From Plasmopara viticola (Eukaryota > Oomycota > Peronosporomycetes > Peronosporales > Peronosporaceae), in contig MBPM02000166.1 of NCBI GenBank assembly GCA_001695595.3, positions 24,026 through 88,025 on the forward strand: a stretch of DNA of 64,000 nucleotides. The letters are read 5' to 3'. Shown here one piece after another: positions 5,821 through 61,800 of this stretch (positions are counted from its first letter, which is position 1; the number at the start of each line of letters is the position of its first letter). Both the position numbers and the translations under genes were made by a program. The notes under the pieces are model-generated. The model ran no database searches. It saw only the letters and a program-made list of their open reading frames with translations, and had not been told where the DNA came from.

Positions 5821-5835
5821 GACAGCTTGGCCGAG
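5821..5835 (+). pseudogene. tRNA-Ser 5' stub (left target duplication of LINE B copy 1)
   Basis: GACAGCTTGGCCGAG, the first 15 nt of tRNA-Ser, ends here and runs straight into the LINE B 3' end. The matching copy is 13640-13654, the start of a complete tRNA-Ser. Confidence 0.95.
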
Positions 5836-6825
5836 TTCAAGTAGTGTGTATTACTTAATACGACTTCCACTTCTCTATGCCTACGTCGTTTAACTAATAT
5901 ACAATCTACTACCTGTCTACAGGTTAACTTGAGGCTTTCTTTTAATCGTTTGGTGTGACAAGCACTTTGATCGGCTGGATAGAACTGATTGATTTTAATT
6001 CACAATCCTTCACCGGGACCAGTATTTCTGTTGGTTTCGCGGATATCCACTTGGACGTGATAGTTGACCTACCTAGCAAAGTATTGACCTCCCATGTACA
6101 GTTCGAAGCCTTGTCCATCGTTGCGGGAAGCGAAGCCGGTGTTCCAGCTCTCGGTCCGCTGCAGACACGCCTGCTTAGAACGGTCAACCACTATCTCCAC
6201 AACAGAATTCGGGCTCGAGCCGCCCGTCGCCCTTTCGGGCCCTGGCGACGACCCTCTAGTCTCCGAAACTGAAGTGGAGAAGTGGAGGCTCACTCTTTGG
6301 ACGCGCAGCCCTGATGCAGCGCCTCGACCACAGGGTCCTCTACCGCAGCAACTGGATTGAGAGTCAGGCTCAGGCCGCCCGTCACCCTTTCGGGCCCTGG
6401 CGACGACCGTCTAGTCTCTGACCTCAATCCAGTCGTCTTGGTCGGGAGGGCCTGGCTGGTTGCCGGTTGAGTTCATCCTGGCTACTTGGGGCTTGATCGG
6501 CTTGACTTGGGTACTTGGAGGAAAATTGGAAAGTGAGGATGTGTGTTATGAGGCACAAAATCACCTCTATATCTTATCCCCTCCGAAAATCGATCACAAA
6601 ATCACCTCTAGATCTTATCCCCTCCGAAAATCGACGCTCTTAAAATAATATTCTGACCTGTCAGACTTATCCCCCGTCTAAGCCGATCACTTCGGGACAT
6701 GATATTCTGTAAAATTCATATACAGTATCACAGGTAAACCGAAATTTTGGCCAATTTTGGAGCCGAATTGAGTCCGCCGGCGAAAAGAAACGGCTGAGGC
6801 GAAGTGTTGGTAGAAGTAGGGACGG
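5836..6825 (-). other. LINE B copy 1 3' UTR
   Basis: About 990 bp between the ORF2 stop and the element 3' end. It contains a 41-bp tandem duplication (6553-6593 and 6594-6634, with CTTATCCCCTCCGAAAATCGA) and two GC-rich copies of a 45-bp motif (6220-6264 and 6374-6418, with CCCTTTCGGGCCCTGGCGACG). A hairpin sits near the 3' end. ORFs on both strands between 5942 and 6272 are not supported as coding: base differences from copy 2 there change amino acids in both frames. Confidence 0.8.
5848..5861 (-). other. 3'-terminal hairpin of LINE B copy 1
   Basis: GTATTA-CT-TAATAC is a perfect 6-bp stem with a 2-nt loop, 12 nt from the element 3' end. LINE A (38437-38454) and the SINE have hairpins at almost the same distance. 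It is probably a recognition element for the reverse transcriptase (inference). Confidence 0.55.
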
Positions 6826-9800
6826 CTACAGGAAACGCACAGCAAACAGCGGAGCGTTGGTGCGCATAAAGGCACCCATCGAGCGAGAGCATCGGAGCCG
6901 GGTCAGCACAGAATGGAGCGATGCTTGCTGGTCTTCGTCGTACACCCTACGTTTGCATGCACGCACGTGGGCACTAAGTGTGGTGTACACGACCCGGAGC
7001 GCAGGCACCAGAGGCAAAAGCTCACGCTGGCGGAACAATCCGTCATTGCGCACTGTCCACAGCAAGTGGAGCGTGATGCAACGTGTGATCTGCCACAGAT
7101 CATGCACCACGGCGGCATGGTTGTGCCAAGCGGATGTAAGGGCTGGTGGGCGACCAAGGGCGATGTCGAGCCATGTCGGTGTGGTGACAAAGAAAGCTGA
7201 CCAGTCCGAAACAGAACTGGCCATAGCTCGGCTGGTAGAACGCACTCAAAGAACAGGTGCCGTCTGTTTCCACTGCGTTGCATCCGCTGCGTACGCAGTA
7301 GATGATGCCAGGATGCGCCTCGCGCAGAAAAGAGAATCGTGAACGCACTGGCAACAGACGGAAGGCGAGTCGGAATTGCAGATCTTCGTATACAGGAAGC
7401 AGCAGCCGACGTAAACGCTTGGACTGTTCCACGAAAACTTTGATGTCGATTGTTGTGGCGTGCTCATCGTGCAGCTGGATTGGGTGTGGCTTCGTGGGCG
7501 TGGGGATCTTCCACACAAGCAGGAGCAACTGGGAACGTGGTACTAATGGCGCAACACAGACGCGTTCCCCCACGCGCACGCCAACGTATGGTGCAGTGGG
7601 ACACACCCAGGCCACGCCTGGAGGCGGAAGCGGTGTATTGGCGCATAGATCCCGTAGTCGCTCGAAGACTTGTGTGGCTTCGTGATGCAGGCGTCGGAGC
7701 CACTGGTACTGCTGGTACACAGGGACTGACGTGAGCCGGTAGTCAATGTGTCCGCGCGCAAACGCGTCAGCATCCGGCCATGCACCGCCAGCGTTCAAGA
7801 AGTCAGCAAGACACCGAAGTTTGAAAGTTGTTGCGGTGTGCTGGCGGTAGCTGCGCTGGGGTTCGGCAACCATGCAAAGACTACGCCGCTGTACTTTTGA
7901 GCTGCTAACACGGGCGGCGAGTTCAAACTGGAAATCAGCGTCGGCGTGGAACCAAATCGGTTGGTTCAGCACATAGCCGAGGCGGGCGAGGGGGGCGAGG
8001 TCTCGCCATGTGACTTCCCACTTGGTCATATACCATAGACGCCAGACTTGGCGCCACCACTGTGACAACACATCCCACCGCAGCAGAGCGCCGTGGCGCA
8101 TGGGGCTAACCGTAAGATAGTCGAGAGGACGCCGGGGACCCCAAGTGGGCAACACAAGCGACAGAAGCACGACTCCTGGTGTGGTCCAGTTACATTGGGA
8201 CGAGGTCGACGCAGCGATGAACTGGAGCAGCACGCTGAGCTTTTGACGCTTGAGTGAGGCTTCGATGCTGGGTACTGACAGACCACCGTCGGAGCGAGGT
8301 TGATACAGAAACTCCTTGGGAATCAGCTGGACGTGTTTGGCGTTGCGTTCGTAGCGACGTGCAAGTACAAAGCGGTTGAGCGTGGACTGCCACTGCTTAA
8401 CGATCCGCTGCGGGATTGGCACATGCACAGTGTAGTGCCACAACCGAGAAAGCACCATTGTTAGCGCAACCAGCAGGCGTCCTCGCAAGGTGCGAGCGCG
8501 ACGAAACCATTGGAGAAAACCTTCGTAGAATCGCCTGTCCAAGAGCTCTATGATGGCGTTTTCAACAGGATCCTGACCAAACAGGATGCCCAGAAACTTG
8601 ACCGTCTCACCACGCTGGAGCAACTTGACACCAGGAAAACAAGGAGGGTTTGTCCGTCGGTTTAGAGGCATAAGCACGCATTTGGCATAGTTGAGCTTGG
8701 CTCCGGAGCCATCGCAGTACAGCTGAACCAGGCCAAGCTGTGCCTGGATGCCGGACACCGAGCCAGAGAGCAACGTTGTGTCATCAGCAAAAAAGACGCT
8801 GGTGGCGGTGTGGTCTTCGGTGAGGCAAACACCATGCTCTTCATGCTGTCGGAGCAGGTTCCCCAGTGGCTCGATAGCCATAAGAAACAGCAGCGCTGAG
8901 AGTGGGTCGCCTTGCTTGACTCCTCTTGTGGGGAAAAACGGCGGCTGGATGTGACCGTTGAGCAAGAGGTGTGCTTGTGGGGCGGTGTAAAGCAACCTCG
9001 CCCAGTTGGTGAAGGCGCCGCCGCAACCCATGCGATCGAGCACTTGAAACATGTAGTCCCAGTCGACCCGATCGTACGCCTTCTCGAAATCGAGAAACAA
9101 AGCGTAGGCTTCTTCGTCGCGTGCAGTCGTGAGGTCTTGCAGATCGGCCATGAACCGCACATGATGATGAAGAGACCGACCCTTGACGAACGCCTTCTGG
9201 TCGGTGTGTATAAGTTCAGGAAGGCAGTGCTGGAGGCGGTAGGTCAAGACCTTGGATAACGCCTTCACGTCAACGCCAATGAGCGAGATCGGCCGAAAGT
9301 TTCCGGGGTCGTCACGCGAGCCTTTCTTGTGCAACATGCACACAGCCGACTTGCGCTGGGAAGGGAGGAGCTCACCTCGTGCCAACTGATAATTGAACAC
9401 TATGCTCAGACATTCCCCGAAAACGTCGGGCGCGACCTGATAGAAGCCAGCTGTGAGACCGTCCATGCCAGGCGCGGAGTTGGTCTTCATATGCTTGAGC
9501 GCGTCAGCAAGATTGGCTCCGGAAATCGGGGCGTTGAGACGGTCTTGTTCATCGGTTGTTAGACGCTTGTCAATCGTGTTCAACAGCTTTCGTCGGCTGC
9601 TGGGATTGATGGGTGGTAATGGTCCGGCAGGATTGGCAGCATCGCCCATGATACAACCCCAGTGGGCCCGAAAGCATGCTGAGATGTCCGCTGGGTTTTG
9701 CGAGATGTCGCCGCTGGAGTCCGAACTTGTTCAATGCTGACCCGTCGGAGTGATGGGTCGATCGGACGGAAGAAGTACGTGGAAGACGTCTCGGCCTTCT

Positions 9801-10960
9801 GAACTTTAAAGTCAAAGGCCGAGTCTTGGTTGTAGCAGCGAGACCGGGTCACGCAGTCGCGGTATGTGTCTAGTGCAGCTCGAAAGGCCTCTTGGGAGGT
9901 TGCGTCTCGCTTGTTATGGTACCGCATTGCTGCTTGATCTAGCGTGATTTGTGCGGCTGTAATGGCGACGTCGTTTTGGCTGCGTAGCTTACGTTGGAGG
10001 GCCTGTAGCTGGCGCCGCATAAATTTCTTCCACTGCTCCCAGACTTTGCCTGGGTTCGATGCAGTCTGGAGATTCTCGAGCACCTGTCGGGCTTCACCAC
10101 AGATGGCATCGACAACATCGGAGTACTCAAGAAGATACTCCGGAAAGCGCCAGTAGCCATATCCGTGGAGTTGAGACACCGAGCGCAAGGTTACTGTGTG
10201 CGCCAGGTGGTCACCAGCACCTTTGGGCTCAAAGTACTTAGAGTCGCCGTACAACGCGTTGCAGAAGTCTTCCGACAACATAGCATAGTCAAGTCGGTTC
10301 TGCCTCGGCTGGGGGCCAGTGTATATGCGCTCGTCTTGGTGGTGGATCCGCCAGGCATCTACGACACCTAGCTGGCTCAGCCAGCTCATACAAGCGCTGC
10401 GGCCCGGGCGAGCAAGCAAGCGTGGCTGGGATGAGTCGAGGCTGGGGTTCAGCGGCGTGTTCAAATCGCCGAGGACTATGTGCGTTGCATTGTCCTCAAA
10501 GCGGTCCACTGGAAGATGGTTGAAGAACACAGCTTTTTCGTGGTCGTCCACCGGCGAGTACACATTGTGGATGTACACAGGTGCACTGACGACCACCAAT
10601 CGAACAACTAGATAGCGTCCCGGACAGTCAGCTCGCGAAGCTCTTCGGCCGCATCGAAGCCTGGAAAGTCGTAGCGAAGCACAGTGAGCACTCCGCCAGA
10701 TCGGTGTGTTGTCTGTGTGGCACTGACTGCACCAGGGTCGCTGACGAATAGCTTGTGCCTGAAACGGGCCTGAAGGTTAAATTTGAAGGTGTCAAGATGG
10801 TGGCAATCGCGGAATTTGGTCTCCTGGATGCAAGAGAGGCTGTGCTTCTCGAGCAAATTCTCGATTAGTAGGTGCCGTTTTTCTTGATCCCGTTGGTATT
10901 AACGGTCAGCAAGCTGACTTCTTGCCACGAGACCTCGGGTGCGTCCACGCGTGGGACCAC
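6826..10960 (-). pseudogene. LINE B ORF2: APE endonuclease and reverse transcriptase (copy 1, several frameshifts)
   Basis: The product is an element-encoded replicase of about 1,378 residues. The N-terminal endonuclease has VNTNGI, QETKF, GDLN (codons at 10459-10470), RLDY and GDHLAH in the order of the exonuclease-endonuclease-phosphatase fold. The reverse transcriptase has APGMDGL, LDFEKAYDRV, GVKQGDPLS and FADD (codons at 8780-8791). Near the C-terminus is a C-X4-C-X7-H-X4-C motif, seen whole in copy 2. No RNase H domain is recognisable. Frame breaks lie near 10890, 10622, 9716 and 7263, with more close to the C-terminus; each is a one-base difference from copy 2. The frame opens just before the ORF1 stop and has no ATG before the endonuclease. 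Confidence 0.88.
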
Positions 10961-10961
10961 C

Positions 10962-13549
10962 TTAGCACCTTAAGGCGAGCGGTCCAGTCACAAGCACAGA
11001 CTGACCGTCGACTTGCTGGAGCTGGAGCACATCCGCGTTCTCTGGGAAGTAATGGCCGCAGTCACGAAGGTACTCGAGGTCTTCGAGTATATCCCCTTGC
11101 CACTGGACTGCTTCCCAAATCTTGAAGCAGTGTGTGCCGATCTCGGAGCGAAGCAGGACCAACAACATATTGGGGTGAAGAAGACGTCGGTTGTGCGCTG
11201 GTATCCAAGGCACCGACCACCCGGTCAGACGCTGGAGCCAGTAGTCCTTTTCAAAGATCTGGGGCGCTGTGCACATCAACATCAACTCAAAGAGGGACAG
11301 CGCCCTAGTCGCACGCACAATAGTTGGTGTGTCCGGGTTGTTCCACCACTGGGCAACGCATCGGAATACACCGTCACGCGTCTTAGGCACCTTGGTGCCG
11401 AGATACTTGGCCCACTTGCGAGCGAACGTATTCGTTTCGGTGTTGTCGGTCGCGCTTAAGATGCGATTGATCATGTGAAGCTGGGCCAGCTCGGTGACGC
11501 TGGGGCTCAGCTCACGCATCTCACGCAAGAGCGCGGTGTTAAACGCCATTGGAGCTTTAACGGACCCCATGAACGTCAGCGTGTCGGGGTTGTTCGTCGT
11601 GCGAAGCGACTTGCGAAGGCCACTCACCATGGTGTCGGCGGCGGCCAAGCGATCCGGAAGCAGCTGGAGATCGGCTGTCTGTTCAGTAGCCTCCATCTCG
11701 CTGACAATCTCTTGGATTGGAGTAGGCTCTTTGGTTTTCACCACTCTGGTGTGGTGTTTGGTCAGAAAGTGACTGGCTTCTTTGCTGTCAGTCAGGTTGC
11801 GCGGCGCCTGCACCTTGCGTGGCACAATTTGAAACCGTGGGATCTCGACCTCATCGAGCGTTGCTGGGCAGCAGTCAAACTCGACCTCGACATTGCTGAG
11901 CACGTCGAAATAGTTGCTTGTCGTGACGCCGGTGAGAGGTTTCGGACGAGATTTCATCAGCATATTGGCAAAGTCTTCATCAGCACGAGAACGTTTGCCT
12001 TTGCGTTTGCCACCGACCCTGGGCACCAACTCAGATTGGGCAGTCGGTGGTGGTGGGAGCAAGAGCAACGGAGACGATGTCGGGCTGCTTGGTGGCGACA
12101 CGACTTGGGAGCCTGCAGTGCTTAGGGACAGCTCACTAGGCTCTAAGGTATCAGTCGGTGCTGCAACGATAGCAGTGGTCGCGGCAGAGTCTTCACGGAT
12201 CGATCGTTGGAGCGACGTTTCCTGCACGCCACGACGTACCACGGCAGCATAAGATGGCTGCGACGGGCATTTATCTGGCCGCCTTTGGCTAGTGTTGGAG
12301 GATGGACCACCGTCTCTAGCTAAGTCGAGCGCGTGGATTGAGCGTTGACCGAACGACATGCGTTGGGTTGGAAACGGAGCGTTTTTTGTGTGTACTGGGT
12401 AAATGCGTCCAGCAAAAACGAGCTGGTCGCACACAGTACCACTTATCACGAGCTCCGGAGGGCAATGGCTAGAGCGGAAGTACACACGCCAAGTGGCGGT
12501 GGTGATCACCGCGTCCAGATTTACATCGCGGAAAGTGCCGTAGATCGGCTGCGTACCGAGCTCGAAGAAGCGTTTCAACATGAGATCAGCATCGAAGTCA
12601 CTGTCGACACTTGACACATCAATAAAGAAGCGGTCGGCAAGGATGTCAAACCCGCCGAATCGGTACCTGCCTCCGAGGATCTTGACTTCCTGGCCAGCAA
12701 GACTCTGGCAGGCTTCTTTCGTCTTCACCTTGACGCGGATGTTGCCGCCGGGAGCTTTGGTCAGCTGACCTAGTTGCTGCTGGTCGATTTGCTGTTGTAC
12801 GACAGGGTTGCCCTGGTCCTTGAGCAACGACGCGAGGATTTTGCTTGGTGCAGTGCGCTGGAAGGCGTGTCCAGTCTCGATGACCATTACATAGCGTGCA
12901 CGAGGCAGCGCGTATGGACGAGCTCGGTCAATCGAGGCGGCGAGTTGGCTCCAATCGCCTCCGGCTTCATAAAGAGCATCAATGGTTTCGATGTCCATCG
13001 CCTTGGGGCGGGGCATCTCGACACGCGGCGGGGCGGGTGCCTCAACGTTGTCGCGGCGGATCTCCGTAGAACGTTGAAGCAGGGCACGAAGCGTTGGCAT
13101 GCGCGTTGGTGCGCTCGCAGTCGAACGCGTGCGAGTTGCTGCGGTTTGCGGGAGAGCACTGGCGTTAGTTGGTGGCGTATATTGGCGTGTGTCGCTGTTG
13201 GGCTGCACATCTTCCACAAAATCCTGCGAAGCAGGTGGCTTGTGCGCAGGCGTGACCCGCAGCTGCACGATCATGCCATCACTTGTTTCGTGCGAGGCTT
13301 GCGACACAGAACCAGCGTTACTACCCTGGTCGTGCATAAACACGAAGCTTCGATGGAACCGTGAATCCCACCGGCATCTGGGTTGTTGGGTACGGACCCA
13401 GCTGAACTGTCGCTTGGTAGGGTTGCGGAACCTTCTATAGGCGATGGGTCGTGGGTACGTGCGGGGGAAGATGGGCGTAGAATCAGCTCACCCATCTCAC
13501 AATCAGCTTGCGCTGACTCTAAGAAAGGGCAACTGGCTTCGGTGTCCAT
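10962..13549 (-). pseudogene. LINE B ORF1 protein (copy 1, one frameshift near the N-terminus)
   Basis: Copy 2 shows that the protein starts with MDTEASC (13549 here) and ends with LALRC-stop, about 862 residues. In copy 1 a T is missing near 13330 (CCTGGTCGTG against CCTGGTTCGTG), so the long open frame begins only at 13343. After a low-complexity N-terminus, two blocks match LINE A ORF1: a core from GGDWSQLAAS through VCDQLVF, whose strand pattern could fit an RRM-like fold, and a C-terminal block from AQLHMINRILSAT to VQWQGDILEDLEYL. I see no CCHC zinc knuckle. An RNA-binding role is expected for LINE ORF1 and is inferred here. Confidence 0.85.
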
Positions 13550-13639
13550 TGGGGGAAAGGCTTGCTTGGGTGCTTGAGAAACTGGATACTTCGAAACTTG
13601 ACTTGGTCGACTTGAGCACGACGAGGCAAATTGAGAAGT

Positions 13640-13720
13640 GACAGCTTGGCCGAGTGGTTAAGGCGTTAGCCTGCTAAGTTAATGGGGTAACCCGCGTGAG
13701 TTCGAATCTCACAGCTGTCG
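13640..13720 (+). tRNA. tRNA-Ser(GCU), rebuilt next to LINE B copy 1
   Basis: A consensus gene whose first 15 nt are the right-hand target duplication. It reads away from the element 5' end, so the insertion cost no tRNA-Ser gene. Confidence 0.97.
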
Positions 13721-14295
13721 CATTATTACAATTTATGTCAGTCAGCCAATGACCTTTTCATTTGCCTTCCAAACATTCAAGCTTTTTGCCCATCGAGTAG
13801 GTTTGCCCATCGGATGACATGCGCTTAATTCGGGACAAACCGAGATGCTCTTTATGAAAGTGAGTTGGGATCTGAGGTCCAAGCACGCGATTTGAAGCTT
13901 TTTTTATGCATCGCTCAATAGGATTATTTTGGTGATCAGCCGTACAAGTTAAAGCGGTACAGATAGTATTAGCGCGGCCCTGTGCAAGGACTTTACGCAT
14001 TAACGAGAAGTATTGCACTTTCATTTGGATTTGAAGCCATGACTCGGCTCGTTGTCATCTTTCATGTCAGCTCAATTACAGTAGACATCGTTTGTTATCT
14101 AAATTAATTAGCGAGGTGAGGCTTGTGTTAGTTCTATACATACCAGCTGTTGTTGCTGTAACGCATAAGTGTTATTTCTTACGCGCACCGCAACTAATGT
14201 AGAGACATTATGATGCTAATAGACCCACTGCGCTTTTGTTTGCGCTTGAACTTGCGTGTATTATTAGTTGTGTGTAAGCTACCTACGGTTGCCAC

Positions 14296-22403: not shown

Positions 22404-22419
22404 GCCCCTATAGCTCAGT
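22404..22419 (+). pseudogene. tRNA-Thr 5' stub (left target duplication of SINE copy 1)
   Basis: GCCCCTATAGCTCAGT, the first 16 nt of tRNA-Thr, joins the SINE 3' end TGAAAG. Confidence 0.95.
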
Positions 22420-22679
22420 TGAAAGTTGTCATGTATTTAATCTTAACACAACCTATACCTTCTCGGCTTGGCTAGGATTTCTACATTTACATTTTTAGTC
22501 TGAAGATTCTTTTTCGTCTTGTTATCGTCTTATTCTTGATCGGGGTCGGAAATATTTCGCTTGGGGCCGTCCTCTCCCCAAGTCTGGTTGATTACGAAGT
22601 TTGTCCGGTGTGGGGCTCGAACCCGCACCACACACCGTGAGGACCAGAAGCATAATCCACTAACCCACGCCACCGGGTG
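22420..22679 (-). mobile_element. tRNA-derived SINE, copy 1, in tRNA-Thr
   Basis: An element of about 260 bp on the minus strand. Its 5' head (about 22603-22678) is tRNA-like, with an intact box B (GGTTCGAGCCC, complement at 22613-22623) and a box A-like region with a short insertion; the remainder is unrelated and ends ...ATGACAACTTTCA(A). Near the 3' end the sense strand can form a 7-bp stem (GTGTTAA against TTAATAC with one bulged A). It is flanked by at least 14 bp of target duplication. Box A and B would give Pol III transcription. It encodes no protein, so it must use another element's machinery; LINE A shares its target and a similar 3' end. Confidence 0.85.
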
Positions 22680-26554: not shown

Positions 26555-26570
26555 GCCCCTATAGCTCAGT
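26555..26570 (+). pseudogene. tRNA-Thr 5' stub (left target duplication of SINE copy 2)
   Basis: GCCCCTATAGCTCAGT followed directly by the SINE 3' end. With the preceding C the duplication is 17 bp (26554-26570 and 26830-26846). Confidence 0.95.
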
Positions 26571-26829
26571 TGAAAGTTGTCATGTATTTAATCTTAACAC
26601 AACCTATACCTTCTCGGCTTGGCTAGGATTTCTACATTTACATTTTTAGTCTGAAGATTCTTTTTCGTCTTGTTATCGTCTTATTCTTGATCGGGGTCGG
26701 AAATATTTCGCTTGGGGCCGTCCTCTCCCCAAGTCTGGTTGATTACGAAGTTTGTCCGGTGTGGGGCTCGAACCCGGACCACACACCGTGAGGACCAGAA
26801 GCATAATCCACTAACCCACGCCACCGGGT
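26571..26829 (-). mobile_element. tRNA-derived SINE, copy 2, in tRNA-Thr
   Basis: A 259-bp element, nearly identical to copy 1. One base in the T arm of its tRNA-like head (26754-26829) differs (CCCGGACC against CCCGCACC). Its 5' junction (GGGT|CGCCCC) differs from copy 1, which points to a separate insertion at the same 3' nucleotide. Confidence 0.85.
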
Positions 26830-26830
26830 C

Positions 26831-38426: not shown

Positions 38427-38436
38427 TGAAGGTCGT

Positions 38437-39425: not shown

Positions 39426-39429
39426 CTTG

Positions 39430-40498
39430 TTCTCTCCTAGACGTTGCACATTTTTTCTTGTGCGCTCCATCTCCCGCGTATCTTGTTGCTTGAACTTCTT
39501 CTGTTCGTGATAAAGCTGAGTCTTGATGCTTTTTATCCAGTTTATCCAAATTTGTCGGGGGTTTCTGATCGGCGAGTTTTGTCCAGGACCTGCTCGGCCT
39601 CGCTCTCAATTTCTGCACAACCTTCGAATATTCGAGGAGGTATCGCAAGAATTTTTAATAACCAGGACCATGTAGCTGCGTACCACTGCGAAAGAGAAAC
39701 ACTATGAGCAAGATGGTCACCAGTGTGCATTGGGAAAATATTTGGCATTTTCGTTAAAGCGGGCACAGAATTGCTCCGAAACCAGAATGTGGTCCGGTCG
39801 ATATTTCCGAGGAAGAGGACCAGTAAACACTCGCTTGAAGTCATAGCGGGTACGCAGCGCGTCAATGACACCTAGTTTGGCAACCAACTCGAGACAAGCA
39901 GTGCGGCTCGGGTCGAAGTGCAAGTCAGGTTTCGAGCAGTCAAGTGGCGTAATTTAATCTCCAAGCATGAAGTGCGTCGCATCATCTTCAAACCCTTCTA
40001 TTGGAAGGATTAAAAGAACGATTGCTTTTCGTGTCTATCGACAGGCGCATACACATTGTGAATATAGGCAGGAGCACGTTGAACCGTTACTGTTACGACA
40101 AGATACCGTCCCGGCACCGACAAGTTTAATATTTCTGCAGCCGTGTCGATACCAGGGAAATCAGAACGTAGCTGCGTCAGAACTCCACTACTGCAACCGC
40201 GCGTGGGTCGGTCGAGTCTCATGTTACTGTCATTCACAAAGACTTTGTGGGCAAAATTTGAGCCGAGGTGAAACTTGAATGTATTGAGATGCTCCAAGTC
40301 AGCAAATCTGGTTACTTGGACGCATGTTAGCGAGTGCTTGGCTAGAAGTTTTTCAATAGAGGTGACCATTTTGCTTGATGCCGTTTGTGTTGACGGTAAT
40401 AAGCGAGATAGCACGTTCCAGGCGTGTTGTTCTTCCGATCCAACTTTAGCAGCGACTGGAGACAGCTCCAGCCACTGTCGTAGCCAAGGAGCCAGCAT
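39430..40498 (-). pseudogene. LINE A ORF2, endonuclease part only (frameshifted)
   Basis: In several frames it matches the LINE B endonuclease: VNTNGI and KQNGH near 40390, KHSLTCVQVTRF (the catalytic QE position reads QV), GVLTQLRSDFPGIDTA, GRYLVV, YIHNVYAPVDRHEK, then GPLPRKYRPDHILVSEQF, GDHLAH and a short stretch matching the linker after the endonuclease. The QE to QV change would remove a metal-binding glutamate. The ORF overlaps the ORF1 stop; an ATG at 40498 exists but is not in the endonuclease frame. No palm, finger or FADD motifs follow. I take it as a dead remnant. Confidence 0.75.
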
Positions 40499-42977: not shown

Positions 42978-43048
42978 TGCGAAAGAACGAAGGGTAGAAA
43001 TGGTGGTTAAAAGGGGGCACTTCCTATGATTTGACTTGCGTAGTAGCC

Positions 43049-43063
43049 GGCAAATTGGGAAGT
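43049..43063 (-). other. Conserved LINE 5' terminus (LINE A copy 2)
   Basis: Sense strand ACTTCCCAATTTGCC, identical to copy 1 and one base different from LINE B. Confidence 0.75.
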
Positions 43064-43135
43064 GCCCCTATAGCTCAGTGGTAGAGCACTCGCTTCGTAA
43101 GCGAGAGGTCGGTGGTTCGATCCCGCCTGGGGGCT
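43064..43135 (+). tRNA. tRNA-Thr(CGU), rebuilt next to LINE A copy 2
   Basis: A complete gene with the fully paired GCGAG anticodon stem; its first 16 nt are the target duplication. Confidence 0.97.
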
Positions 43136-43697
43136 CTTCTTACCATTTTATACTGCTTCTTCACGTATATTTGGTCAGAGCAGTTGAGATAGCTATTCGC
43201 CGCTCATTTCATAATCTATTTGTCATGCACTTGTCTTGTGGTGGTTTGTGGTGGGGCGCATACTGCTCGATTGGTGCGCACGGCGCCTTCACACACGGTA
43301 TGACTGTCTGATGGAAGAAAAAAGCCTAACGCCAGGGCTATGCAAGTAAGCTATTGCAATTGTGATTGCAGGGGGATTGTGGTTAGCATCGAAGACGTTA
43401 AAAAGGGGTGACAGCTCGTTTTCTCTGTGATCTAAAAAGTCATCTCCTTCGCATGGTATCATTTTCTCAAACTTGTACGTATATACATCCTCGAACTTGA
43501 CATGCCGACCGAAAAAAAGAATCAATGCATCTAGCTGCTATTGGGCGGCCGCTTTCGAGTGTTTTTTTAGCGTACTACGCTTTGTGTCATGTGCTATACT
43601 TTAATGTGTCGCACGAGCGATTTGCATGACTATGGTGGTATGCATGAGTAAGGGTGGAAAAAGTTTGTAATCAGTGTATCAGTTAACAGCCAGGGAT

Positions 43698-46939: not shown

Positions 46940-46955
46940 GCCCCTATAGCTCAGT
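46940..46955 (+). pseudogene. tRNA-Thr 5' stub (left target duplication of SINE copy 3)
   Basis: GCCCCTATAGCTCAGT joins the SINE 3' end; with the preceding C the duplication is 17 bp (46939-46955 and 47217-47233). Confidence 0.95.
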
Positions 46956-47216
46956 TGAAAGTTGTCATGTATTTAATCTTAACACAACCTATACCTTCTC
47001 GGCTTGGCTAGGATTTCTACATTTACATTTTTAGTCTGAAGATTCTTTTTCGTCTTGTTATTGTCTTATTCTTGATCGGGGTCGGAAATATTTCGCTTGG
47101 GGCCGTCCTCTCCCCAAGTCTGGTTGATTACGAAGTTTGTCCGGTGTGGGGCTCGAACCCGCACCACACACCGTGAGGACCAGAAGCATAATCCACTAAC
47201 CCACGCCACCGGGTCC
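46956..47216 (-). mobile_element. tRNA-derived SINE, copy 3, in tRNA-Thr
   Basis: A 261-bp element with the tRNA-like head at 47139-47214. It has two extra C at the 5' junction (GGGTCC|CGCCCC) and GTTATTGTC where copies 1 and 2 have GTTATCGTC. Confidence 0.85.
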
Positions 47217-47217
47217 C

Positions 47218-49130: not shown

Positions 49131-49145
49131 GACAGCTTGGCCGAG
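49131..49145 (+). pseudogene. tRNA-Ser 5' stub (left target duplication of LINE B copy 2)
   Basis: GACAGCTTGGCCGAG joins TTCAAGAAGTC, the LINE B 3' end. The matching copy is 56961-56975. Confidence 0.95.
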
Positions 49146-50145
49146 TTCAAGAAGTCTGTATTACTTAATACGACTTCCACTTCTCTATGCCTACGTCGTT
49201 TAACTAATATACAATCTACTACCTGTCTACAGGTTAACTTGAGGTTTTCTTCTAATCGTTTGGTGTGACAAGCACTTTGATCGGCCGGATAGAAGTGATT
49301 GATTTTATTTCACAACCCTTCACCGGGACCAGTGTTTCTGCTGGTTTCGCGGATATCCACTTGGACGTGATAGTTGACCTACCTAGCAAAGTATTGACCT
49401 TCCATGTACAGTTCGAAGCCTTGTCCGTCGTTGCGGGAAGCGAAGCCGGTGTTCCAGCTCTCGGTCCGCTGCAGACACGCCCGCTTAGAGCAGTCAACCA
49501 CTATCTCCACAACAGAATTCGGGCTCGAGCCGCCCGTCGCCCTTTCGGGCCCTGGCGATGACCCTCTAGTCTCCGAAACTGAAGTGGAGAAGTGGAGGCT
49601 CACTCTTTGGACGCGCAGCCCTGATGCAGCGCCTCGACCACAGGGTCCTCTACCGCAGCGACTGGATCGAGAGTCAGGCTCAGGCCGCCCGTCACCCTTT
49701 CGGGCCCTGGCGACGACCGTCTAGTCTCCGACCTCGGTCCAGTCGTCTTGGTCGGGGGGGCCCTGGGGAAGCACTGGTTGCTGGATGAGTTCATCCTGGC
49801 TACTTGGGGCTTGATCGGCTTGACTTGGGTACTTGGAGGAAAATTGGAAAGTGAGGATGTGTGTTATGAGGCACAAAATCACCTCTATATCTTATCCCCT
49901 CCGAAAATCGATCACAAAATCACCTCTCGATCTTATCCCCTCCGAAAATCGATCGCTCTTAAAATAATATTCTGACCTGTCAGACTCATCCCCCGTCAAA
50001 GCCGATCACTTCGGGACATGATATTTTTGTAAAATTCATATACAGTATCACAGGTAAACCGAAATTTTGGCCAATTTTGGAGCCGAATTGAGTCCGCTGG
50101 CGAAAAGAAACGGCTAAGGCGAAGTGTTGGTAGAAGTAGGGACGG
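49146..50145 (-). other. LINE B copy 2 3' UTR
   Basis: About 1 kb with the 41-bp tandem duplication (49872-49912 and 49913-49953), the paired GC-rich CCCTTTCGGGCCCTGG motifs, and the terminal hairpin GTATTA-CT-TAATAC at 49158-49171. No coding sequence is supported. Confidence 0.8.
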
Positions 50146-53100
50146 CTACAGGAAACGCACAGCAAACAGCGGAGCGTTGGTGCGCATAAAGGCACCCATC
50201 GAGCGAGAGCATCGGAGCCGGGTCAGCACAGACTGGAGCGATGCTTGCTGGTCTTCGTCGTACACCCTACGTTTGCATGCACGCACGTGGGCACTAAGTG
50301 TGGTGTACACGACCCGAAGCGCAGGCACCAGAGGCAAAAGCTCACGCTGGCGGAACAATCCGTCATTGCGCACTGTCCACAGCAAGTGGAGCGTGATGCA
50401 ACGTGTGATCTGCCACAGATCATGAACCACGGCGGCATGGTCGTGCCAAGCGATGTAAGGGCTGGTGGGCGACCAAGGGCGATGTCGAGCCATGTCGGTG
50501 TGGTGACGAAGAAAGCTGACCAGTCACGAAACAGAACTGGCCATAGCTCGGCTGGCAAACCGCACTCAAAGAACAGGTGCCGCTCTGTTTCCACTGCGTT
50601 GCATCCGCTGCGTACGCAGTAGATGATGCCGGGATGCGCCTCGCGCAGAAAAGAGAATCGTGAACGCACTGGCAACAGACGGAAGGCGAGTCGGAATTGC
50701 AGATCTTCGTATACAGGAAGCAGCAGCCGACGTAAACGCTTGGACTGTTCCACGAAAACTTTGATGTCGATTGTTGTGGCGTGCTCATCGTGCAGCTGGA
50801 TTGGGTGTGGCTTCGTGGGCGTGGGGATCTTCCACACAAGCAGGAGCAACTGGGAACGTGGTACTAAGGGCGCAACACAGACGCGTTCCCCCACGCGCAC
50901 GCCAACGTATGGTGCAGTGGGACACACCCAGGCCACGCCTGGAGGCGGAAGCGGTGTATTGGCGCATAGATCCCGTAGTCGCTCGAAGACTTGTGTGGCT
51001 TCGTGATGCAGGCGTCGGAGCCACTGGTACTGCTGGTACACAGGGACTGACGTGAGCCGGTAGTCAATGTGTCCGCGCGCAAACGCATCAGCATCCGGCC
51101 ATGCACCGCCAGCGTTCAAAAGTCAGCAAGACACCGAAGTTTGAAAGTTGTTGCGGTGTGCTGGCGGTAGCTGCGCTGGGGCTCGGCAACCATGCAAAGA
51201 CTACGCCGCTGTACTTTTGAGCTGCTAACACGGGCGGCGAGTTCAAACTGGAAAGCAGCGTCGGCGTGGAACCAAATCGGTTGGTTCAGTACATAGCCGA
51301 GGCGAGCGAGGGGGGCGAGGTCTCGCCATGTGACTTCCCACTTGGTCATATACCATAGACGCCAGACTTGGCGCCACCACTGTGACAACACATCCCACCG
51401 CAGCAGAGCGCCGTGGCGCATGGGGCTAACCGTAAGATAGTCGAGAGGACGCCGGGGACCCCAAGTGGGCAGCACAAGCGACAGAAGCACGACTCCTGGT
51501 GTGGTCCAGTTACATTGGGACGAGGTCGACGCAGCGATGAACTGGAGCAGCACGCTGAGCTTTTGACGCTTGAGTGAGGCTTCGATGCTGGGTACTGACA
51601 GACCACCGTCGGAGCGAGGTTGATACAGAAATTCCTTGGGAATCAGCTGGACGTGTTTGGCGTTGCGTTCGTAGCGACGTGCAAGTACAAAGCGGTTGAG
51701 CGTGGACTGCCACTGCTTAACGATCCGCTGCGGGATTGGCACATGCACAGTGTAGTGCCACAACCGAGAAAGCACCATTGTTAGCGCAACCAGCAGGCGT
51801 CCTCGCAAGGTGCGAGCGCGACGAAACCATTGGAGAAAACATTCGTAGAATCGCCTGTCCAAGAGCTCTATGATGGCGTTTTCAACAGGATCCTGACCAA
51901 ACAGGATGCCCAGAAACTTGACCGTCTCGCCACGCTGGAGCAACTTGACACCAGGAAAACAAGGAGGGTTTGTCCGTCGGTTTAGAGGCATAAGCACGCA
52001 TTTGGCATAGTTGAGCTTGGCTCCAGAGCCATCGCAGTACAGCTGAACCAGGTCAAGCTGTGCCTGGATGCCGGACACCGAGCCAGAGAGCAACGTTGTG
52101 TCATCAGCAAAAAAGACGCTGGTGGCGGTGTGGTCTTCGGTGAGGCAAACACCATGCTCTTCATGCTGTCGGAGCAGGTTCCCCAGTGGCTCGATAGCCA
52201 TAAGAAACAGCAGCGCTGAGAGTGGGTCGCCTTGCTTGACTCCTCTTGTGGGGAAAATCGGCGGCTGGATGTGACCGTTGAGCAAGAGGTGTGCTTGTGG
52301 GCGGTGTAAAGCAACCTCACCCAGTTGGTGAAGGCGCCGCCGCAACCCATGCGATCGAGCACTTGAAACATGTAGTCCCAGTCGACCCGATCGTACGCCT
52401 TCTCGAAGTCGAGAAACAAAGCGTAGGCTTCTTCGTCGCGTGCGGTCGTGAGGTCTTGCAGATCGGCCATGAACCGCACATGATGATGAATAGACCGACC
52501 CTTGACGAACGCCTTCTGGTCGGTGTGTATAAGCTCAGGAAGGCAGTGCTGGAGGCGGTAGGTCAAGACCTTGGATAACGCCTTCACGTCAACGCCAATG
52601 AGCGAGATCGGCCGAAAGTTTCCGGGGTCGTCACGCGAGCCTTTCTTGTGCAGCATGCACACAGCCGACTTGCGCTGGGAAGGGAGGAGCTCACCTCGTG
52701 CCAACTGATAATTGAACACTATGCTCAGACATTCCCCGAAAACGTCGGGCGCGACCTGATAGAAGCCAGCTGTGAGACCGTCCATGCCAGGCGCGGAGTT
52801 GGTCTTCATATGCTTGAGCGCGTCAGCAAGATTGGCTCCGGAAATCGGGGCGTTGAGACGGTCTTGTTCATCGGTTGTTAGACGCTTGTCAATCGTGTTC
52901 AACAGCTTTCGTCGGCTGCTGGGATTGATGGGTGGTAATGGTCCGGCAGGATTGGCAGCATCGCCCATGATACAACCCCAGTGGGCCCGAAAGCATGCTG
53001 AGATGTCCGCTGGGTTTTGCGAGATGTCGCCGCTTGGAGTCCGAACTTGTTCAATGCTGACCCGTCGGAGTGATGGGTCGATCGGACGGAAGAAGTACGT

Positions 53101-54281
53101 GGAAGACGTCTCGGCCTTCTGAACTTGAAAGTCAAAGGCCGAGTCTTGGTTGTAGCAGCGAGACCGGGTCACGCAGTCGCGGTATGTTTCTAGTGCAGCA
53201 CGAAAGGCCTCTTGGGAGGTTGCGTCTCGCTTGTTATGGTACCGCATTGCTGCTTGGTCTAGCGTGATTTGTGCAGCTGTAATGGCGACGTCGTTTTGGC
53301 TGCGTAGCTTACGTTGGAGGGCCTGTATCTGGCGCCGCATAAATTTCTTCCACTGCTCCCAGACTTTGCCTGGGTTCGATGCAGCCTGGAGATTCTCGAG
53401 CACCTGTCGGGCTTCGCCACAGATGGCATCGACAACATCGGAGTATTCAAGAAGATACTCCGGAAAGCGCCAGTAGCCATATCCGTGGAGTTGAGACACC
53501 GAGCGCAAGGTTACTGTGTGCGCCAGGTGGTCACCAGCACCTTTGGGCTCAAAGTACTTAGAGTCGCCGTACAACGCGTTGCAGAAGTCTTCCGACAACA
53601 TAGCATAATCAAGTCGGTTCTGCCTCGGCTGGGGGCCAGTGTATATGCGCTCGTCTTGGTGGTGGATCCGCCAGGCATCTACGACACCTAGCTGGCTCAG
53701 CCAGCTCATACAAGCGCTGCGGCCCGGGCGAGCAAGCAAGCGTGGCTGGGATGAGTCGAGGCTGGGGTTCAGCGGCGTGTTCAAATCGCCGAGGACTATG
53801 TGCGTTGCATTGTCCTCAAAGCGGTCCACTGGAAGATGGTTGAAGAACACAGCTTTTTCGTGGTCGTCCACCGGCGAGTACACATTGTGGATGTACACAG
53901 GTGCACTGACGACCACCAATCGAACAACTAGATAGCGTCCCGGAACAGTCAGCTCGCAAAGCTCTTCGGCCGCATCGAAGCCTGGAAAGTCGTAGCGAAG
54001 CACAGTGAGCACTCCGCCAGATCGGTGTGTTGTCTGTGTGGCACTGACTGCACCAGGGTCGCTGACGAATAGCTTGTGCCTGAAACGGGCCTGAAGGTTA
54101 AATTTGAAGGTGTCAAGATGGTGGCAATCGCGGAATTTGGTCTCCTGGATGCAAGAGAGGCTGTGCTTCTCGAGCAAATTTCTATTAGTAGGTGCCCGTT
54201 TTTCTTGATCCCGTTGGTATTAACGGTCAGCAAGCTGACTTCTTGCCAAGAGACCTCGGGTGCGTCCACGCGTGGGACCAC
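50146..54281 (-). pseudogene. LINE B ORF2: APE endonuclease and reverse transcriptase (copy 2, frameshifted)
   Basis: Domains are as in copy 1; the endonuclease through most of the RT fingers and palm is one open frame. Frame breaks: near 54180 (an A missing before ATTTGCTCG), near 52300 (one G missing, GTGGGCGG against GTGGGGCGG, between the LDFEKAYDRV and GVKQGDPLS blocks) and near 51118 (one G missing). FADD is encoded at 52100-52111. The C-terminal C-X4-C-X7-H-X4-C (YCVRSGC...RHLFFEC) is intact here. The end APLFAVRFL-stop lies at 50146. The frame opens at the ORF1 stop and lacks an ATG before VNTNGI. Confidence 0.88.
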
Positions 54282-54282
54282 C

Positions 54283-56870
54283 TTAGCACCTTAAGGCGAG
54301 CGGTCCAGTCACAAGCACAGACTGACCGTCGACTTGCTGGAGCTGGAGCACATCCGCGTTCTCTGGGAAGTAATGGCCGCAGTCACGAAGGTACTCGAGG
54401 TCTTCGAGTATATCCCCTTGCCACTGGACTGCTTCCCAAATCTTGAAGCAGTGTGTGCCGATCTCGGAGCGAAGCAGGACCAACAACATATTGGGGTGAA
54501 GAAGACGTCGGTTGTGCGCTGGTATCCAAGGCACCGACCACCCGGTCAGACGCTGGAGCCAGTAGTCCTTTTCAAATATCTGGGGCGCTGTGCACATCAA
54601 CATCAACTCAAAGAGGGACAGCGCCCTAGTCGCACGCACAATAGTTGGTGTGTCCGGGTTGTTCCACCACTGGGCAACGCATCGGAATACACCGTCACGC
54701 GTCTTAGGCACCTTGGTGCCGAGATACTTGGCCCACTTGCGAGCGAACGTATTCGTTTCGGTGTTGTCGGTCGCGCTTAAGATGCGATTGATCATGTGAA
54801 GCTGGGCCAGCTCGGTGACGCTGGGGCTCAGCTCACGCATCTCACGCAAGAGCGCGGTGTTAAACGCCATTGGAGCTTTAACGGACCCCATGAACGTCAG
54901 CGTGTCGGGGTTGTTCGTCGTGCGAAGCGACTTGCGAAGGCCACTCACCATGGTGTCGGCGGCGGCCAAGCGATCCGGAAGCAGCTGGAGATCGGCTGTC
55001 TGTTCAGTAGCCTCCATCTCGCTGACAATCTCTTGGATTGGAGTAGGCTCTTTGGTTTTCACCACTCTGGTGTGGTGTTTGGTCAGAAAGTGACTGGCTT
55101 CTTTGCTGTCAGTCAGGTTGCGCGGCGCCTGCACCTTGCGTGGCACAATTTGAAACCGTGGGATCTCGACCTCATCGAGCGTTGCTGGGCAGCAGTCAAA
55201 CTCGACCTCGACATTGCTGAGCACGTCGAAATAGTTGCTTGTCGTGACGCCGGTGAGAGGTTTCGGACGAGATTTCATCAGCATATTGGCAAAGTCTTCA
55301 TCAGCACGAGAACGTTTGCCTTTGCGTTTGCCACCGACCCTGGGCACCAACTCAGATTGGGCAGTCGGTGGTGGTGGGAGCAAGAGCAACGGAGACGATG
55401 TCGGGCTGCTTGGTGGCGACACGACTTGGGAGCCTGCAGTGCTTAGGGACAGCTCACTAGGCTCTAAGGTATCAGTCGGTGCTGCAACGATAGCAGTGGT
55501 CGCGGCAGAGTCTTCACGGATCGATCGTTGGAGCGACGTTTCCTGCACGCCACGACGTACCACGGCAGCATAAGATGGCTGCGACGGGCATTTATCTGGC
55601 CGCCTTTGGCTAGTGTCGGAGGATGGACCACCGTCTCTAGCTAAGTCGAGCGCGTGGATTGAGCGTGACCGAACGACATGCGTTGGGTTGGAAACGGAGC
55701 GTTCTTTGTGTGTACTGGGTAAATGCGTCCAGCAAAAACGAGCTGGTCGCACACAGTACCACTTATCACGAGCTCCGGAGGGCAATGGCTAGAGCGGAAG
55801 TACACACGCCAAGTGGCGGTGGTGATCACCGCGTCCAGATTTACATCGCGGAAAGTGCCGTAGATCGGCTGCGTACCGAGCTCGAAGAAGCGTTTCAACA
55901 TGAGATCAGCATCGAAGTCACTGTCGACACTTGACACATCAATAAAGAAGCGGTCGGCAAGGATGTCAAACCCGCCGAATCGGTACCTGCCTCCGAGGAT
56001 CTTGACTTCCTGGCCAGCAAGACTCTGGCAGGCTTCTTTCGTCTTCACCTTGACGCGGATGTTGCCGCCGGGAGCTTTGGTCAGCTGACCTAGTTGCTGC
56101 TGGTCGATTTGCTGTTGTACGACAGGGTTGCCCTGGTCCTTGAGCAACGACGCGAGGATTTTGCTTGGTGCAGTGCGCTGGAAGGCGTGTCCAGTCTCGA
56201 TGACCATTACATAGCGTGCACGAGGCAGCGCGTATGGACGAGCTCGGTCAATCGAGGCGGCGAGTTGGCTCCAATCGCCTCCGGCTTCATAAAGAGCATC
56301 AATGGTTTCGATGTCCATCGCCTTGGGGCGGGGCATCTCGACACGCGGCGGGGCGGGTGCCTCAACGTTGTCGCGGCGGATCTCCGTAGAACGTTGAAGC
56401 AGGGCACGAAGCGTTGGCATGCGCGTTGGTGCGCTCGCAGTCGAACGCGTGCGAGTTGCTGCGGTTTGCGGGAGAGCACTGGCGTTAGTTGGTGGCGTAT
56501 ATTGGCGTGTGTCGCTGTTGGGCTGCACATCTTCCACAAAATCCTGCGAAGCAGGTGGCTTGTGCGCAGGCGTGACCCGCAGCTGCACGATCATGCCATC
56601 ACTTGTTTCGTGCGAGGCTTGCGACACAGAACCAGCGTTACTACCCTGGTTCGTGCATAAACACGAAGCTTCGATGGAACCGTGAATCCCACCGGCATCT
56701 GGGTTGTTGGGTACGGACCCAGCTGAACTGTCGCTTGGTAGGGTTGCGGAACCTTCTATAGGCGATGGATCGTGGGTACGCGCGGGGGAGGATGGGCGTA
56801 GAATCAGCTCACCCATCTCACAATCAGCTTGCGCTGACTCTAAGAAAGGGCAACTGGCTTCGGTGTCCAT
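54283..56870 (-). pseudogene. LINE B ORF1 protein (copy 2, one frameshift)
   Basis: It starts with MDTEASC at 56870, 90 nt inside the element, and stays open for about 405 residues. A T is then missing near 55667 (GAGCGTGACC against GAGCGTTGACC in copy 1), and the frame resumes to the LALRC-stop at 54283. Copy 1 is intact here but broken elsewhere, so together the two copies show the family encodes one ORF1 of about 862 residues. Domains are as in copy 1. Confidence 0.87.
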
Positions 56871-56945
56871 TGGTGGAAAGGCTTGCTTGGGTGCTTGAAA
56901 AACTGGATACTTCGAAACTTGACTTGGTCGACTTGAGCACGACGA

Positions 56946-56960
56946 GGCAAATTGAGAAGT
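56946..56960 (-). other. Conserved LINE 5' terminus (LINE B copy 2)
   Basis: Sense strand ACTTCTCAATTTGCC, identical to LINE B copy 1 at 13625-13639. Confidence 0.75.
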
Positions 56961-57041
56961 GACAGCTTGGCCGAGTGGTTAAGGCGTTAGCCTGCTAAGT
57001 TAATGGGGTAACCCGCGTGAGTTCGAATCTCACAGCTGTCG
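56961..57041 (+). tRNA. tRNA-Ser(GCU), rebuilt next to LINE B copy 2
   Basis: A consensus gene; its first 15 nt are the target duplication. CCTTTTC (T4) follows. Confidence 0.97.
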
Positions 57042-57617
57042 CATTATTACAATTTATGTCAGTCAGCCAATGACCTTTTCATTTGCCTTCCAAACATTCA
57101 AGCTTTTTGCCCATCGAGTAGGTTTGCCCATCGGATGACATGCGCTTAATTCGGGACAAACCGAGATGCTCTTTATGAAAGTGAATTGGGATCTGAGGTC
57201 CAAGCACGCGATTTGAAGCTTTTTTTATGCATCGCTCAATAGGATTATTTTGGTGATCAGCCGTACAAGTTAAAGCGGTACAGATAGTATTAGCGCGGCC
57301 CTGTGCAAGGACTTTACGCATTAACGAGAAGTATTGCACTTTCATTTGGATTTGAAGCCATGACTCGGCTCGTTGTCATCTTTCATGTCAGCTCAATTAC
57401 AGTAGACATCGTTTGTTATCTAAATTAATTAGCGAGGTGAGGCTTGTGTTAGTTCTATACATACCAGCTGTTGTTGCTGTAACGCATAAGTGTTATTTCT
57501 TACGCGCACCGCAACTAATGTAGAGACATTATGATGCTAATAGACCCACTCCGCTCTTTGTTTGCGCTTGAACTTGCGTGTATTATTAGTTGTGTGTAAG
57601 CTACCTACGGTTGCCAC

Positions 57618-61453: not shown

Positions 61454-61469
61454 GCCCCTATAGCTCAGT
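61454..61469 (+). pseudogene. tRNA-Thr 5' stub (left target duplication of SINE copy 4)
   Basis: GCCCCTATAGCTCAGT joins the SINE 3' end; with the preceding C the duplication is 17 bp (61453-61469 and 61728-61744). Confidence 0.95.
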
Positions 61470-61727
61470 TGAAAGTTGTCATGTATTTAATCTTAACACA
61501 ACCTATACCTTCTCGGCTTGGCTAGGATTTCTACATTTACATTTTTAGTCTGAAGATTTTTTTCGTCTTTGTTATTGTCTTTTTCTTGATCGGGGTCGGA
61601 AATATTTCGCTTGGGCCGTCCTCTCCCCAAGTCTGGTTGATTACGAAGTTTGCCGGTGTGGGGCTCGAACCCGCACCACACACCGTGAAGACCAGAAGCA
61701 TAATCCACTAACCCACGCCGCCGGTCT
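61470..61727 (-). mobile_element. tRNA-derived SINE, copy 4, in tRNA-Thr
   Basis: The most diverged SINE copy (258 bp): GATTTTTTTCGTC, GTCTTTTTCTTG, CTTGGGCCGTCC, GTTTGCCGGTG and CGCCGCCGGTCT differ from copies 1-3. The box B in its tRNA-like head (61652-61727) is intact. Its divergence and its own 5' junction support an insertion independent of the others. Confidence 0.85.
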
Positions 61728-61728
61728 C

Positions 61729-61800
61729 GCCCCTATAGCTCAGTGGTAGAGCACTCGCTTCGTAAGCGAAAGGTCGGTGGTTCGATCCCGCCTGGGGGCT
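61729..61800 (+). tRNA. tRNA-Thr(CGU), rebuilt next to SINE copy 4
   Basis: A consensus gene; its first 16 nt are the target duplication. Confidence 0.97.

Follow-up and report, generated by a model that had tools for sequence, protein, structure and literature searches.

A 64,000-nt stretch of the Plasmopara viticola genome (contig MBPM02000166.1, here C166, positions 24026-88025; hereafter the window) carries tRNA-Thr(CGT) and tRNA-Ser(GCT) genes repeated in tandem, with ~1.3 kb per Thr/Ser pair, and eight retroelements stand within tRNA genes of this array. Analysis of these insertions and of their counterparts in the 92.9-Mb assembly (358 contigs), over which the genome searches were run, indicates that they are very probably long interspersed nuclear elements (LINEs) with an apurinic/apyrimidinic endonuclease-type (APE-type) endonuclease that use tRNA genes as landing sites, together with their non-autonomous partners, the site being chosen by the endonuclease and the gene regenerated upon insertion.

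The eight window elements are all on the minus strand and run antisense to the tRNA genes, with two copies of LINE B in tRNA-Ser and two copies of LINE A and four short interspersed nuclear elements (SINEs) in tRNA-Thr (Table 1). This bears out the sequence-only reading of the window, which had placed all eight at a single site in these two tRNAs in antisense orientation; LINE A copy 1 crosses the left window edge, and at its 3′ junction beyond that edge, C166:17576 (locus L042), there is again a tRNA-Thr 5′ end. In each case the first residues of a tRNA are followed by the element 3′ end on the left, with a complete tRNA beyond the element 5′ end on the right. Residues 1-16 are repeated exactly at both sides in six of the seven insertions with both junctions in the window, the exception being SINE 1, where the rebuilt tRNA-Thr is without one C. 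Joining the flanks gives 138-140 of 140 bases identical to the uninserted unit in six of the seven, while SINE 1 reaches only 102/140 because the one-base loss shifts the ungapped comparison. The rebuilt tRNAs are above the Rfam cut-off in 8/8 cases (51.4 to 68.2 bits). The genes are thus not simply interrupted, since residues 1-14 are duplicated, with a complete tRNA rebuilt at the element 5′ end and a stub left at the 3′ end, a feature missed in the sequence-only reading. The four SINE copies of the window have 5′ ends that differ from one another. LINE A copy 2 is without reverse transcriptase, with ~3.2 kb missing relative to the copy at L169, while LINE B copy 2 holds the endonuclease and part of the reverse transcriptase in one frame (51982-54219).

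The same junction recurs throughout the assembly. The 19-base SINE 3′ end has 151 genomic matches at up to one mismatch, and this end followed by ACTGAGC has 163 at up to two mismatches. Among the matches listed, 97 of 100 exact SINE 3′ ends were also exact with ACTGAGC appended, in agreement with the earlier argument that the targeting is not chance; of the other three, L014 reads ACTTAGC and two have an unread flank. A tRNA-type 3′ flank was present in 76 of 76 distinct copies at the first loci (29 LINE A, 3 LINE B and 44 SINE), with one CGTGAGC and one ACTTAGC variant, a count from which SINE relatives of 73% identity were excluded, as were matches with incomplete ends or a 3′ flank shorter than 60 bases. 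The LINE B 3′ flanks collected beyond these loci were all Ser/Leu-type tRNA starts (23/23), the LINE B 3′-end list having 38 rows of which 25 were read (23 fetched and two in the window), with four of the six weaker ones read later. Pattern-matched 3′ junctions in the sequence collected numbered 111, of which one falls within an element rather than at its end; the remaining 110 are without exception tRNA-type 5′ ends, and target-specific insertion in the D arm, or box A, is supported genome-wide. A LINE A copy at L002/L066 is left out of this count, as its variant end, CGTGAGC, was missed by the pattern. Comparison of the first 14 bases, allowing one mismatch, assigned 105 of the 110 stubs to a tRNA, with three stub sequences (5 reads) unassigned to any tRNA having the same form as the others, and residue 14 was A in 109 of the 110 reads.

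Most targets read A14-G15-T and the elements bring GTT, such that the boundary is ambiguous at these genes. At Ala-AGC genes, five uninserted reads have GCTCA-AATGG and four stubs GCTCA-GTT, while at Arg-ACG genes four uninserted reads have GCCCA-ATGG and one stub GCCCA-GTT (the reads not being de-duplicated at either gene). As these A15 targets have A14 followed by GTT in the stub, GTT is element sequence and the step lies at 14/15, which replaces the 15/16 step proposed from the window. Five SINE copies in Ala genes differ at residue 15 between the stub and the rebuilt gene of the same insertion, and an uninterrupted repeat of at least 14 nt is found in 36 of 44 distinct SINE copies, five of the other eight being in Ala genes with A15. 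The aligned junctions place the 3′ junction after A14 and the 5′ junction at residue 1 or up to two bases before it, with residues 1-14 duplicated and a full-length tRNA gene at the element 5′ end. For SINE A and LINE C the element RNA is accordingly read as ending in ...AAC with the nick after A14. The last letters AAC are common also to LINE A (TTCAAC) and LINE B (CTTGAAC), which would put the LINE A boundary after A14 too, although LINE A is without an A15 target of its own. The element RNA may in addition carry a few bases of the old target by read-through.

The 5′ junctions were located through the end common to LINE A, B, C and D (ACTTCYYAATTTGCC). The complement of the LINE 5′ 15-mer occurs at 122 places in the genome (reversed control 3), of which 77 continue into a tRNA start (control 0), with the spacing from the 15-mer to residue 15 being exactly 15, equivalent to a start at residue 1, in 60 of the 77, 16 or 17 in 16 and 14 in one. 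The Rfam tRNA cut-off was passed by 17 of 20 tRNA-side flanks sampled from the 77, the remaining three being a tRNA-Ile by ARAGORN (L153), a stub followed by a SINE (L154) and a short piece (L167). Among the other 45 places, 37 were read and classed by eye, giving six starts of tRNAs or tRNA-like sequences that the pattern does not cover (Arg, Ala, Ser, two Phe-like and one other), five tRNA 3′ halves and two places beside a Lys spacer. Copies were also chosen by the LINE B reverse transcriptase, run against its own genome, which gave 58 rows (52 of 890 candidates scored) and, after six short continuation rows were dropped, 52 places. In 42 of these the LINE 5′ end adjoins a tRNA start or else a tRNA stub followed by a stacked element. 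Several of the copies so selected have uninterrupted frames of at least 1,380 codons, and the full-length LINE A at L169 is flanked by exact 16-base repeats of tRNA-Tyr. At the 5′ ends of LINE A (43019-43063) and LINE B (13588-13639), both on the minus strand, a terminal stem-loop of ~45-52 nt closed by ACTTC/GAAGT is predicted, with no clear terminal stem in the predicted folds of the LINE C and LINE D 5′ ends; the LINE A 5′ end had no match to known ribozyme families up to E 5.

The element families divide the tRNA genes between them. In class I tRNAs (Lys, Thr, Tyr, Met, Ile, Phe, Ala and Arg) 89 of 89 3′ junctions belong to LINE A (27), SINE A (56) or LINE C (6), while in Ser and Leu tRNAs 21 of 21 belong to LINE B or its non-autonomous relative, a split of 89:0 against 0:21 over 110 reads that are not independent. 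With Cys added from the 5′ junctions the target range comes to 11 amino-acid families, much wider than the Thr and Ser genes named from the window, both of which are nevertheless used. The D-arms read GCTCA or GCCCA for LINE A, LINE C and SINE A, and GCCGA or CCCGA for LINE B and its relative. Within the one array that offers both tRNAs, the six LINE A/SINE insertions all use Thr and the two LINE B insertions use Ser (Fisher p 0.036), and this split inside a shared array argues for recognition by the element's own machinery, which Pol III (RNA polymerase III) factors or open chromatin may assist.

SINE A ends in CAACTTTCAAC, which resembles the ends of LINE A (GACCTTCAAC) and LINE C (GACAACTTTAAAC), and has the same target class; the ~520-bp LINE B relative shares the last ~260 nt of LINE B at 72-73%. 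On this similarity SINE A and the LINE B relative are regarded as non-autonomous partners sharing LINE 3′ ends and target class. The head of the SINE gave no Rfam tRNA match up to E 5, with box A/B-like motifs seen by eye only, and a reading of SINE A as a tRNA-derived SINE, with a tRNA-like 5′ head carrying a Pol III promoter, was set aside. Two distant SINE relatives (L013 and L036, ~68-74% over the 3′ half) end in TTTTTAA beside tRNA-Ala-like sequence and may represent a second SINE family. A further LINE, LINE D, is related to the others and shares their 5′ end; it is inserted outside tRNA genes, the copy at L171 having a 14-bp duplication. TGG lies 10-14 nt from the LINE D junction in seven of eight distinct flanks, a motif picked after the flanks had been seen and so a lead only.

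A stub joining one element's end to another's start was found at 12 loci, some of them array duplicates, and such stacking would be expected if the restored site could be used again, the newest insert being predicted to lie next to the tRNA. Inserted units are also repeated within arrays, with nine LINE A copies sharing one 3′ flank and regular spacing on contigs C113 and C76.

In the LINE A copy at L169 the second open reading frame (ORF2) matches Pfam Exo_endo_phos and RVT_1 above cut-off in one frame with the endonuclease N-terminal. The nearest PDB match of the ORF2 proteins is human L1 ORF2p. The predicted endonuclease structure, of moderate confidence (mean predicted local distance difference test score, pLDDT, 65), had the LINE-1 endonuclease as its best match. 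A CX4CX8HX4C motif, which we take to be the CCHC knuckle of APE-type LINEs, follows the reverse transcriptase in LINE A, B and C, and the target site duplication and lack of terminal repeats are as for an APE-type non-long terminal repeat (non-LTR) retrotransposon. On these features LINE A, B and C are classed as APE-type (L1/Tx1-like) non-LTR retrotransposons. ORF1 (~840 aa) has 43 database relatives and no Pfam match; its low-confidence model (mean pLDDT 59) weakly resembles tandem RNA recognition motifs, with no match at E 0.001 or better. The closest named protein relatives are from the oomycetes Globisporangium, Plasmopara and Peronospora, with Phytophthora and Aphanomyces further off. 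In a tree built only from database hits and elements of the P. viticola genome, LINE B clusters with sequences from Globisporangium (100/99), and a second cluster (100/100) unites LINE A and LINE C with Plasmopara, Peronospora and further Globisporangium sequences, suggesting that the two lineages are probably older than the host genus. From protein relatedness, the tRNA target may be shared in other oomycetes. Pattern matching for relatives of LINE A ORF2 gave no match in viral contigs and 14 in genome contigs, none of them a relative, the junction pattern had 0 matches in viral contigs, and no antisense-tRNA read-through was recognised by eye in the N-termini of the 43 ORF1 homologues.

The junctions suggest a mechanism in which the element endonuclease would nick the sense strand of the tRNA gene at the 14/15 step, the freed 3′ end priming reverse transcription of an element RNA ending in ...AAC. 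The second strand would then be cut at the first base of the gene, at a distance of ~14 nt, with fill-in duplicating residues 1-14 and restoring the gene, such that the site could be used again and later copies would come to lie between the tRNA and older copies. Both the choice of site by the endonuclease and this order of cuts we infer from the junction sequences; the rebuilt tRNA genes are complete by sequence and may be transcribed. More broadly, the balance of evidence leans towards a clade of APE-type LINEs whose two lineages, each with its own satellite, divide the tRNA genes by D-arm (class I against Ser/Leu) and insert after a near-invariant A14 to regenerate the gene, which would then serve as a harmless landing pad that can be used repeatedly, the most recent insertion standing closest to the tRNA.

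Several observations weigh against targeting of tRNA genes after A14. Among the 37 off-pattern 15-mer places read, 24 are not tRNA, comprising 10 LINE D, five of an unrelated repeat and nine other, and L136 has a LINE B-like 5′ end with an unrelated flank. The 52 places chosen by reverse transcriptase include two at tRNA 3′ halves, two beside a Lys spacer, three with a tRNA somewhere in the 561-base piece whose junction was not placed, and three (L177, L178 and L186, the last a contig end) with no tRNA in the 561-base piece fetched. Two uninserted Ala-CGC reads have G15, so that Ala-CGC is no proof of the 14/15 step, and for LINE B, which has no A15 target, the boundary after A14 would hold by analogy. 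Young copies are favoured among the SINE and LINE A places, which were taken from the 40 best-scoring candidates, and copies are multiplied within arrays, the junction reads being distinct but not independent events.

Of the alternative explanations, tethering of the complex to TFIIIC/TFIIIB, with an endonuclease of little specificity, would resemble Dictyostelium TRE5-A and yeast Ty3 and would fit with every target seen being a Pol III gene; the TRE5-A ORF1 protein is reported to bind TFIIIB and to require box B (PMC5911963). Such tethering is nonetheless an unlikely basis for the pattern, as the 3′ junction shows no drift, with the near-constant A14, and LINE A/SINE and LINE B inserts are divided between Thr and Ser in one array served by one Pol III machinery, as they are in all 110 non-independent reads, though Pol III factors could still act as helpers. 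The recurrence of inserted units within arrays raises the possibility that a few old insertions were multiplied by array expansion and gene conversion, the specificity being illusory. The same step is found in 11 amino-acid families with unrelated spacers, made by four element families, and the window SINEs have different 5′ ends; array copying was rejected as the cause of the pattern on the range of tRNAs used, and we regard it as highly improbable.

Broad insertion followed by selective loss of copies outside tRNA genes is very unlikely for other reasons. Multicopy-gene targets would be harmless and older copies fall outside the sample, as this explanation would have it, but the single-nucleotide position and fixed second cut need site-specific cleavage and the related LINE D persists outside tRNA genes in the same genome. 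Finally, tRNA arrays are difficult to assemble and the junctions were judged from the assembly rather than from raw reads, yet dozens of contigs show the same junction, in tRNA genes of many types and with a separate duplication each time, and element-coded bases are visible at A15 targets, leaving an assembly artefact with a negligible probability. Site choice by the endonuclease with regeneration of the gene thus remains the preferred reading.

Targeted LINEs mostly interrupt their target gene, as do R2 and Utopia, or insert outside it, as does TRE. A cut within the gene that yet leaves a complete copy would spare the host much of the cost, each tRNA gene becoming a reusable site. The two lineages form a natural pair for studying how an APE endonuclease switches between D-arm sequences, with LINE D as a related comparison element outside tRNA genes, and if the rebuilt genes are transcribed the system would offer a model for insertion into multicopy safe sites that is nearly scarless. 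The findings also bear on the tRNA arrays of oomycetes, which are large and variable. Big tandem tRNA arrays, a Thr-Trp-Ser array among them, are reported in Phytophthora infestans (PMC9584435).

Table 1. Elements, tRNA stubs and rebuilt tRNA genes in the window (window coordinates), and genomic loci of related features (L numbers).
Feature	Position or loci	Strand	Remarks
LINE A copy 1, 5′ part only	1..1365	-	94% identity to LINE A copy 2 5′ end; 5′ junction directly before tRNA-Thr at 1366
Rebuilt tRNA-Thr-like gene at 5′ end of LINE A copy 1	1366..1438	+	Anticodon CGA, ARAGORN = Ser; 59.8 bits
14-nt tRNA-Ser stub (residues 1-14) at 3′ end of LINE B copy 1	5821..5834	+	Boundary placed after A14 by analogy with A15 targets
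LINE B copy 1	5835..13639	-	ORF1 10962-13487; endonuclease part 9580-10776; reverse transcriptase 7100-9730; frame broken between pieces
Rebuilt tRNA-Ser(GCT), LINE B copy 1	13640..13721	+	61.5 bits; joined flanks 140/140
tRNA-Thr stub at 3′ end of SINE 1	22404..22417	+	Stub sequence
SINE A copy 1	22418..22676	-	Rebuilt tRNA-Thr ~22677-22750, one C short in CCCC run, 51.4 bits
SINE A copy 2	26569..26830	-	Stub 26555-26568; rebuilt tRNA-Thr 26831-26903, 64.2 bits; flanks 140/140
LINE A copy 2	38425..43063	-	Stub 38411-38424; ORF1 open 40446-43067; flanks 139/140
Rebuilt tRNA-Thr, LINE A copy 2	43064..43136	+	68.2 bits
SINE A copy 3	46954..47217	-	Stub 46940-46953; rebuilt tRNA-Thr 47218-47290, 55.4 bits; flanks 138/140
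LINE B copy 2	49145..56960	-	Stub 49131-49144; 98.7% identity to copy 1; flanks 138/140
Rebuilt tRNA-Ser(GCT), LINE B copy 2	56961..57042	+	61.5 bits
SINE A copy 4	61468..61728	-	Stub 61454-61467; rebuilt tRNA-Thr 61729-61801, 64.2 bits; flanks 140/140
~520-bp LINE B relative in Leu or Ser tRNA genes	L193, L194, L195, L196		
LINE D	L170, L171, L116, L123-L126, L128, L130, L133, L137, L142		L124 and L126 coincide with L170 and L171; the other eight are short loci
Stacked elements	L037, L052, L055, L060, L089, L090, L104, L154, L175, L180, L184, L190		

The array itself has other irregularities. The tRNA-Thr copies at 1366 and 2644 have the anticodon CGA instead of CGT and are called as Ser by ARAGORN. 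At 15602-15640 a tRNA-Thr ends at about residue 38 and is followed by the spacer found downstream of tRNA-Ser (TCAGTCAGCC), a broken gene that is an array rearrangement and not an element. Between the tRNA-Ser and tRNA-Thr of the array unit lies a degenerate U6 small nuclear RNA (snRNA), at 18149-18251, 26178-26280, 36742-36844 and 46563-46665, scoring 43.9 to 44.5 bits where scored, with three barely above the cut-off of 44, compared with 101-106 bits for U6 arrays at other places in the genome.

Published systems resemble these elements in part. The suggestion that no comparable family had been described was too strong, given that tRNA-gene-specific non-LTR elements, LIN15_SM in tRNA-Arg and LIN25_SM in tRNA-Glu, are in print for planarians (PMC4640811), as is Dada (PMC8869645). 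LIN15_SM and LIN25_SM are likewise non-LTR retrotransposons specific for tRNA genes but are NeSL-related, have a restriction-like endonuclease and use one tRNA each (PMC4640811). Utopia is a non-LTR element specific for a small RNA gene (U2 snRNA) that is kept in multicopy genes, oomycetes included, but it has a restriction-like endonuclease and leaves the U2 gene disrupted (PMC4640811). Dada inserts in box A of several tRNA genes, at nucleotides 8-13 (TAGCTC), but is a DNA transposon with a DDE transposase, a 6-bp duplication and its own tRNA per family (PMC8869645; PMC3706591), whereas the P. viticola elements have reverse transcriptase and APE reading frames and a ~14-nt duplication. Dewa of zebrafish is a target-specific non-LTR element at tRNA repeats that lies in the tRNA-Leu spacer and not in the gene (PMC3706591).

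The dictyostelid elements TRE5, TRE3, NLTR-A and NLTR-B are, like those described here, L1-clade APE-type LINEs aimed at tRNA genes, with TRE5 also in opposite orientation and NLTR-A only 2-6 bp upstream of the tRNA gene (PMC5911963; PMC5006619). They differ in inserting outside the gene, in windows of a few to more than 100 bp, with TRE5-A linked to TFIIIB/TFIIIC, and in the RNase H of NLTR-A and NLTR-B (PMC5911963; PMC5006619). NLTR-A, whose duplication may reach into the tRNA, could be closer than this description suggests. The P. viticola elements stand at one nucleotide step within the gene, with the 3′ junction after residue 14 and the gene restored. Membership of TRE was rejected on the in-gene junction, of Utopia or other NeSL-related groups on the APE endonuclease and tRNA targets, and of Dada on the reverse transcriptase and APE frames and the ~14-nt duplication. 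No APE-type LINE group with this site, tRNA range, class split and restored gene was found in full-text searches of an open-access library, subscription papers, Repbase reports and supplements being outside the search. Insertion at tRNA genes is itself already known, and what appears new, on those searches, is the combination of site, range, class split and restored gene.

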